From Oscillospiraceae bacterium (GTDB lineage Bacteria > Bacillota > Clostridia > Oscillospirales > Oscillospiraceae): 64,000 nucleotides of DNA. Positions 28,428 to 29,589 of the stretch are shown in pieces. The notes beneath the pieces are model-generated. The model saw only the letters and a list, made by a program, of their open reading frames with translations. It had not been told where the DNA came from and searched no databases. How positions within the stretch are numbered: position 1 is the stretch's first letter; every line of letters begins with the position of its first letter. The DNA is taken from NCBI GenBank assembly GCA_015067665.1, contig SVLZ01000003.1:1-64000 (forward strand). The letters run 5' to 3'. The position numbers and the translations under genes are program-made.

Positions 28428-28515
28428 GCGCGAGTGGTGGAATTGGTAGACTCGCTAGATTCAGGTTCTAGTGTTCACTGCGGACGTGCGGGTTCAAGTC
28501 CCGCCTCGCGCACCA
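28428..28515 (+). tRNA. tRNA-Leu (anticodon CAG), CCA encoded
   Basis: GCGCGAG/CTCGCGC acceptor stem, CTAGA-TTCAGGT-TCTAG anticodon arm, GCGGG-TTCAAGT-CCCGC T-arm, long variable arm, ACCA. Confidence 0.95.
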
Positions 28516-28517
28516 CG

Positions 28518-28557
28518 AAAAAAGTCACTTTTGTCTAACGACAAAGGTGACTTTTTT
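28518..28557 (+). terminator. Terminator of tRNA-Leu
   Basis: AAAAAAGTCACTTTTGTC-taac-GACAAAGGTGACTTTTTT. Confidence 0.9.
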
Positions 28558-28560
28558 CAA

Positions 28561-28728
28561 TGATATCCGTTCCTGTCGGAACGGGTGATATATCTTCGAT
28601 ATGATATCGCACTGTCGTGCGATGATATATGCCTTCGGCATATGAGGAACGGATATTATATCATGCTTGCGAAGCAAGTATATCATACGGCAGCGCCGTA
28701 TATCATATCGCATCAGCGATATATCATT
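28561..28728 (+). repeat. Array of seven short hairpins with mirrored linkers (4x TGATAT then 4x ATATCA)
   Basis: Hairpins traced base by base, e.g. CCGTTCC-tgtc-GGAACGG, ATCGCAC-tgtc-GTGCGAT, ATACGGC-agc-GCCGTAT, ATATCGC-atca-GCGATAT. Confidence 0.9.
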
Positions 28729-28755
28729 GAAAAGTACAACAACTCATGTTATAAT
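28727..28755 (+). promoter_or_regulatory. Sigma-A-like promoter of the four-helix-bundle gene
   Basis: TTGAAA, 17 nt, TATAAT, starting at the array edge. Confidence 0.75.
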
Positions 28756-28777
28756 CATCTTGAAAGAGGGTGCATTT

Positions 28778-29131
28778 ATGTCCGAAAACAGATTACTTGA
28801 CTTATCTTTTGAATTTGCAGTTGCAATTGTTAATCTTGTTGATGGCGTAACTGCACCCAAAAGTTCTTATATGACCGATCAGCTTGCAAGAGCGGGTACC
28901 TCTGTTGGCGCAAATATCCACGAGGCTCAGTATGCGCAGAGTAAGAAGGATTTTGTATCAAAATTGGAAATTGCACTGAAAGAATCCAACGAAACAAGTT
29001 ATTGGCTAAAGCTGTTGTATGAAACAAAGAGAATAGATATGACCACATATCAATATACGGAAAAACTTTGCGGAAACATCCGAAGACTTTTAATTGCTTC
29101 CTGCAAAACCACAAAGGAGAATGCGAAATGA
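28778..29131 (+). CDS. Four helix bundle protein (S23/IVP/Avd-like family)
   Basis: LSFEFAVAIVNLVDG...QLARAGTSVGANIHEAQYAQSKKDFVSKLEIALKESNETSYWLKLL. Confidence 0.88.
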   Translation: MSENRLLDLSFEFAVAIVNLVDGVTAPKSSYMTDQLARAGTSVGANIHEAQYAQSKKDFVSKLEIALKESNETSYWLKLLYETKRIDMTTYQYTEKLCGNIRRLLIASCKTTKENAK

Positions 29132-29404
29132 ATTTTCCTGAAATTCTGAACAACGCTTGCGTATTATACTACACACCGCAAGATTATTATGGAACAGTGC
29201 ACTACACCACTGGAGAAATCGCAGATTACATTCGCTATTTGCAAATACAAAAATGACACACAATACTATCTCTTTGGTTGCAATGCAGATTATGAAGTGG
29301 TGAGCGATTCACCATGGGAAAGCGTTGAACAATGCATGTTGGCAGCTAAAAACTCCTATGATTGTGTTATTTCGTGGATAGCAATGAACGAATACTACTT
29401 TTAG
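29128..29404 (+). pseudogene. Small protein gene coupled to the four-helix-bundle gene, interrupted by a frameshift
   Basis: MNFPEILNNACVLYYTPQDYYGTVHYTTGEIADYIRYLQIQK* then ICKYKNDTQYYLFGCNADYEVVSDSPWESVEQCMLAAK in the next frame. Confidence 0.6.
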
Positions 29405-29589
29405 TCTTTCTTACCTCATTTCTGCTCCATTTGGTTGTTCATAGACAAAAGAACCCGACGGGGATGCTTTTCTTTTGCTTTCGGAAAGCGCGCATCCGGT
29501 TCCGAAAGGGACCCCGCCTCGCGCGCGGAAATTCTTAAAAAACAAATCACCGCGCCGATTTTGGCGCGGTGATCTTAATTGGGAGGGTT

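Follow-up and report, generated by a model that had tools for sequence, protein, structure and literature searches.

A tRNA terminator, a mirrored array of hairpins and a gene for a four-helix-bundle protein stand together behind a tRNA-Leu gene in a 64,000-nt stretch of DNA (the window: positions 1-64,000, forward strand, of contig SVLZ01000003.1 in assembly GCA_015067665.1, Oscillospiraceae bacterium). With a probability of about two in three, we regard them as a compact selfish or cargo-bearing element of tRNA 3' ends, in which the array would serve mainly as DNA. The three parts form one unit with a precise left boundary, which occurs behind many tRNAs, is conserved in structure and carries linkers congruent with its protein. 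As far as can be judged from sequence, this seems to be a very small mobile element of gut Clostridia, of a type not yet described. The unit, its target and its conservation are well supported, and from them we infer a mechanism. In the literature searched, with few subscription papers within reach, no account joins PF05635, Gut-1 and tRNA genes.

The left edge of the unit is the CCA at position 28515, which ends the tRNA-Leu(CAG) gene (28428-28515, plus strand, ARAGORN); this tRNA is the insertion target, and in related loci the junction also lies at CCA. The tRNA terminator hairpin that follows on the plus strand (28517-28558) belongs to the mobile unit and has two arms of 19 nt each (28517-28535 and 28540-28558) that are 95% complementary. 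The array begins 3 nt past the T-run of this terminator, and with its outer stem occupies 28554-28733. An earlier note on this DNA had described seven hairpins separated by mirrored linkers that could pair across the centre. Its TGATAT linkers at 28561, 28586, 28602 and 28623 and its ATATCA linkers at 28658, 28680, 28700 and 28721 are correct to the base, and the seven hairpins are confirmed, with stems of 5-7 bp and short loops. Read on the plus strand, four lie on the left (H1, 28567-28584; H2, 28590-28602; H3, 28607-28622; H4, 28627-28643) and three on the right (H5, 28664-28680; H6, 28686-28700; H7, 28706-28721). The pairing of linkers across the centre is borne out as well, by a perfect 13-bp outer stem that joins 28554-28566 with 28721-28733. 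A second copy of the H1 3' arm, GGAACGGATAT, sits centrally between H4 and H5 (28646-28656, plus strand), and therefore the H1 5' arm has two alternative partners: it pairs locally or, together with the linker, forms 11 bp with the central arm. This central pairing is present in all eight aligned relatives.

The folding of the array is far from that of random sequence. The array strand folds to -77.7 kcal/mol, compared with -51.6 ± 4.2 kcal/mol in dinucleotide shuffles (z = -6.3, with 0 of 200 as good), and the mirrored-linker score of the window, 8, is reached in 0 of 473 control windows. Among eight TGATAT arrays, 96% of the stem cells remain paired, and two-sided changes at 10 stem pairs account for 22 cells versus 7.5 after shuffling. 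Compensatory changes in relatives are found in H3 (three pairs), H4, H5 and H6.

To the right of the hairpins lies a sigma-70-like promoter, TTGAAA-17-TATAAT (28727-28755, plus strand, 11/12 consensus match, -10 box at 28750-28755). Its TTGAAA is exactly where the earlier note had placed it, at 28727, and overlaps both the array end and the outer stem. The four-helix-bundle gene (28778-29131, plus strand, 117 aa) matches the profiles PF05635 (23S_rRNA_IVP) and TIGR02436 with 84.7 bits (cut-off 33.8) and 95 bits (cut-off 24), respectively, and its protein has a solved relative in PDB 2rld (phmmer E = 5.5e-27). A small ORF overlaps the stop of the gene through ATGA (29128-29404, plus strand) in a cargo-like position, and is seemingly split by a frameshift into 29128-29256 and 29189-29404. 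Farther downstream, a 12-nt copy of the tRNA-Leu 3' end, CCCGCCTCGCGC (29513-29524, plus strand), is a possible right-hand repeat that is too weak by itself to be accepted as an attachment site.

RF01706, Gut-1, is an Rfam structured-RNA family of unknown function. According to its covariance model, the array consists of two Gut-1 copies in opposite orientation; the left half (28558-28633, plus strand) scores 59.2 bits, which exceeds the gathering score of 50 bits, and the right half (28653-28729, minus strand) scores 46.2 bits, which falls slightly under it. Among 151 genomes of the family, Gut-1 is found in 30, PF05635 in 37 and both in 18, against 7.4 expected (p = 3e-6). Of 56 sampled Gut-1 matches, 8 are adjacent to a tRNA. 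Gut-1 was described as a non-coding RNA candidate from human gut metagenomes only (PMC2864571). Both array halves in the window resemble that family by their match to its model; it differs here in being half of a mirrored element tied to PF05635 and tRNA 3' ends, in its occurrence in gut MAGs of ruminants and horses, and in that it probably acts as DNA.

The association with tRNA genes holds well beyond the window. In the first sample of 151 genomes, approximately half of the PF05635 genes follow a tRNA of the same strand at a distance of 150-420 nt. The second set comprises 80 named loci, mostly from gut MAGs, and was seeded with array-clade proteins; both sets were gathered via PF05635 profiles or proteins and are independent as loci, not in their route of discovery, and the assemblies used are mostly MAGs. 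A same-strand tRNA is located at most 600 nt upstream of 43 of the 67 testable genes, compared with 9 of 1994 control points. No tRNA lies within 600 nt at 24 of the 67 loci, two of which are behind tmRNA; tmRNA is the target in L204 and L230. A mirrored array was found in 62 of 73 cases versus 13 of 919 control windows. The tRNA targets are of many kinds, the terminator of the unit starts directly after CCA, and a terminator core, TTTTGTCTACCGACAAA, is common to units behind different tRNAs. At 39 of 55 loci, the array starts 1-5 nt past the T-run of the terminator. The earlier note had regarded tRNA-Leu as a neighbouring gene; its role is instead that of an insertion target.

That array and gene are one element, as had been proposed, is strongly supported by related copies at different tRNAs that hold terminator, array and gene, and by a linker type that tracks the protein phylogeny. 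L221 (behind tRNA-Lys) and L223 (behind tRNA-Gln) share 95.9% identity along 978 nt; their homology begins at the CCA, and the DNA upstream of it is unrelated. The window's unit (Leu) and L201 (Arg) are 85% identical over 645 nt, and their match ends exactly at the stop codon at 29131. Other groups of units, behind Leu/Glu/Ser, Ala/Tyr and Pro/Tyr, are 80-86% identical. Because such related copies (80-96%) stand behind different tRNAs, terminator, array and gene appear to move together. In the window's genus, the tRNA-Leu beside a radical-SAM gene is followed by the window's unit in one genome, by an ATTCAC-type unit consisting of array plus PF05635 gene in another (L175/L282), and by no such array in six genomes; the filled L282 and the array-free L284 have both flanks in common. 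From these comparisons we infer that movement is the probable reason why one unit stands behind so many tRNAs. A copy of the tRNA 3' end, at least 13 nt long, is seen downstream at 9 of 72 loci and upstream at 0 of 67; most of these copies sit left of the array and seem to derive from another cassette type. A tRNA-integrating genomic island would have such a direct repeat at its far end and would encode its own tyrosine recombinase. At the right end of the unit, the loci compared display no clean target-site duplication, and among the genomes compared no insertion event between strains of one species was caught.

When the 12 linker types are placed on the protein tree, 11 changes are needed, which is the minimum. 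Since the linker labels had been merged by hand in part, the test was redone with automatic linker profiles for 89 loci, and the congruence persisted (Mantel test restricted to pairs below 75% protein identity, r = 0.58, p < 0.0003). Furthermore, two or three linker types coexist in several genomes (e.g., G000, G001 and G062), and therefore the linker is tied to the protein rather than to the genome. Part of this congruence is explained by the shared descent of array and gene as a linked unit, and it could arise from such descent even if the protein does not bind the linker. For the suggestion of the earlier note that the protein may bind the array, the congruence is accordingly indirect support.

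A further ORF directly follows about 35 of 85 units, in many cases through an ATGA overlap. By inspection, these cargo ORFs include GNAT acetyltransferases, a Nudix enzyme, a MazG-like protein, a phosphatase, a methyltransferase and a nucleotidyltransferase, and the sequences suggest that cargo may be exchanged between units. One cargo ORF is present behind units at different tRNAs and of different linker types, in L269 and G001:C10, and likewise one in L206 and G000:C43.

To our knowledge, PF05635 is a widespread protein family without known function. Of 29 homologous genes taken from the phylum's other families, none follows a tRNA and a single one is accompanied by a mirrored array. When five distant homologues were checked, three were inside 23S rRNA and one was inside RNase P RNA. 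The PF05635 family repeatedly settles in stable-RNA genes, and the array arrangement is the property of one clade. The earlier note had said that its proposal would be refuted if homologous genes consistently lacked arrays, or if the same arrays were dispersed without the gene. The first is the case outside the clade, with its single array, and not within it (62 of 73); as for the second, many gene-less arrays do exist, and the linkage of the unit still stands. Dispersed gene-less arrays do not refute it because they are expected of non-autonomous copies. As an additional observation, an RNase P RNA gene hosts a PF05635 gene whose ends carry short inverted repeats (L319, 1229-2003).

The proposed mechanism runs as follows. 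An element of Oscillospiraceae-like gut Clostridia would insert precisely after the CCA of a tRNA gene, or of tmRNA, and would supply its own terminator, so that the tRNA still ends properly. The protein gene is predicted to be driven by the promoter where the array ends on the right, and this protein probably recognises the conserved linkers. The covarying hairpins, the mirror symmetry and the exchangeable H1 5' arm would permit cruciform or single-strand structures, which may label the element for mobilisation and are able to mask the -35 box. Gut-1 arrays that lack a gene would then be non-autonomous or decayed copies.

Neither a recombinase nor a reverse transcriptase proved to be linked to the unit; its approximately 600 nt encode no recombinase, and the unit itself holds no integron integrase. 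With regard to a phage or plasmid origin, no DNA match was obtained in phage or plasmid collections. Tentatively, and at somewhat less than even odds, the unit may be a minimal cassette of about 0.6 kb at tRNA and tmRNA 3' ends that lacks a known recombinase, carries exchangeable cargo and is moved by a linker-recognising protein of the S23/Avd type, with the 23S rRNA intervening sequence (IVS) as a sister branch. It is rather unlikely that the unit instead owes its mobility to an enzyme acting in trans from another locus, such as a tyrosine recombinase, a Y1/HUH transposase or a phage integrase, with the gene as a linked structural or regulatory partner. The 3' ends of tRNAs are classical tyrosine recombinase targets, in L179 an integrase-like gene (recognised by eye) seems to follow the same tRNA-Leu, and genomes with Gut-1 have Y1 genes more often than those without it (22/30 vs 39/121, p = 5e-5). 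However, the Y1 genes inspected are flanked by GTAGGG-type palindromes or by none, never by linker arrays, and a Y1/HUH transposase was rejected as a direct partner. In addition, G136, which is 99% complete, has arrays and no Y1 match, and the protein gene is retained in the unit and tracks the linker.

At the right edge of the array, promoters matching the consensus at 10 or more of 12 positions number 36 of 89 in the forward direction, 0 in reverse and 1 after shuffling, and the promoter position is conserved among relatives. With the terminator on the left and the promoter on the right, the array of the usual copy fills the gap between two transcripts, and therefore a DNA role is favoured over the label of a small RNA. 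We hold with moderate confidence that the array acts as DNA rather than as an sRNA. It is improbable that the array is a true non-coding RNA, transcribed, folded and bound as RNA by the four-helix-bundle protein, either in regulation or in the form of an RNA intermediate. Such a role would agree with the listing of Gut-1 as a structured RNA in Rfam, with the covariation of stems in the window's array group and with the position of the protein's relatives in transcribed 23S rRNA and RNase P RNA. Covariation, however, also occurs in DNA structures, Gut-1 lies half on each strand, reverse promoters do not rise above the shuffled background, and the array is squeezed into the space from 1-5 nt past the tRNA terminator up to the -35 box of the gene.

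We give little credence to the idea that the array is a stationary, vertically inherited terminator and operator of the gene or the tRNA. The -35 box within the outer stem and the strongly conserved promoter position would fit a regulatory region of this sort, but one unit is found behind different tRNA genes, gene-less copies are scattered, and orthologous tRNA loci are without the unit. Least credible of all is an array copied back as RNA by a reverse transcriptase, in the style of a group II intron or a diversity-generating retroelement and with an Avd-like protein, since, despite the resemblance of PF05635 to Avd (PMC10053308) and the restored base pairing of the hairpin copies, reverse transcriptase matches occur in just 3 of the 18 genomes having both Gut-1 and PF05635. 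Array genomes do not have such matches more often than the others (3/18 vs 43/133), and the partnership was rejected. The tie to Avd and diversity-generating retroelements that the earlier note had drawn is not supported: most array genomes lack a reverse transcriptase match, including the window's own (84.9% complete) as well as G136 (99%) and G061 (98%).

For the preferred reading, a tRNA-3'-end element whose array is mainly DNA, the nearest known systems are the 23S rRNA IVS, Gut-1 and REP/RAYT; integron gene cassettes are likewise comparable. The IVS of 23S rRNA lies inside the rRNA and is excised from the transcript by RNase III. It resembles the present unit as a compact selfish unit at a stable-RNA gene with a protein of the PF05635 family (S23p), and in having short repeats upstream of the ORF, similar direct repeats being present in homologues outside the clade. 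By contrast, the window's unit is not in 23S rRNA; it lies outside the tRNA, behind the CCA of tRNA-Leu, with its own terminator, promoter and mirrored array, and the clade of IVS homologues is separate from the array clade. In Coxiella, the IVS has heptamer repeats upstream of its ORF, and a contribution of this ORF to IVS mobility has been proposed, not demonstrated (PMC4990558). Tandem direct repeats of 6-9 nt, e.g., GGAGTCAGGAGACAGGAG, often precede PF05635 genes outside the family (L291-L320), and they resemble the Coxiella IVS repeats.

REP/BIME sequences and their RAYT (TnpA-REP) proteins combine mirrored, tagged palindromes with congruent repeat and protein trees (PMC2817692). The present arrays are similar in their conserved tags, compensatory stem changes, dispersed gene-less copies and congruent trees, but the unit encodes a four-helix bundle instead of a Y1/HUH transposase and targets the tRNA 3' end; no Y1 gene (PF01797) flanked by these repeats was found in the unit or in the genomes inspected. 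GTAGGG-type palindromes surround RAYT-like Y1 genes in the same genomes (L326, L333, L340 and others). Integron cassettes share a folded recognition site, putative here, and small, varied cargo ORFs, and differ from the multi-hairpin mirror array next to tRNAs, where the cargo overlaps the PF05635 stop in many loci.

The unit links two orphans, the candidate RNA Gut-1 and the protein family PF05635, and yields a testable cognate pair of linker sequence and protein clade. If the proposed element is real, the long-standing but unproven view that the ribosomal IVS protein serves mobility would come back into consideration, and the 3' ends of tRNA and tmRNA would join the targets of very small elements that carry a replacement terminator.

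Gene-less arrays can be numerous, with 24-29 Gut-1 matches each in G061, G072 and G125. In G061, about 27 matches have a linker type to which no gene could be assigned as partner. G125 contains many dispersed, non-mirrored arrays with GTGAAAT linkers behind protein genes (e.g., L123, L131 and L135), whose stems differ yet remain intact in a REP-like manner. A gene-less twin of the window's array lies in the same genome behind tRNA-Ser(CGA) (L009, 2030-2230, G000:C23), with compensatory stem differences and a decayed promoter. Another cassette type was also observed behind tRNA genes (L010, 1990-2140; L287, 566-770; L281; L234; L257). It has its own terminator, an inverted T-arm fragment, GGGACTTGAA, and short hairpins, after which comes either a direct repeat of the tRNA 3' end or the original terminator in a displaced position.
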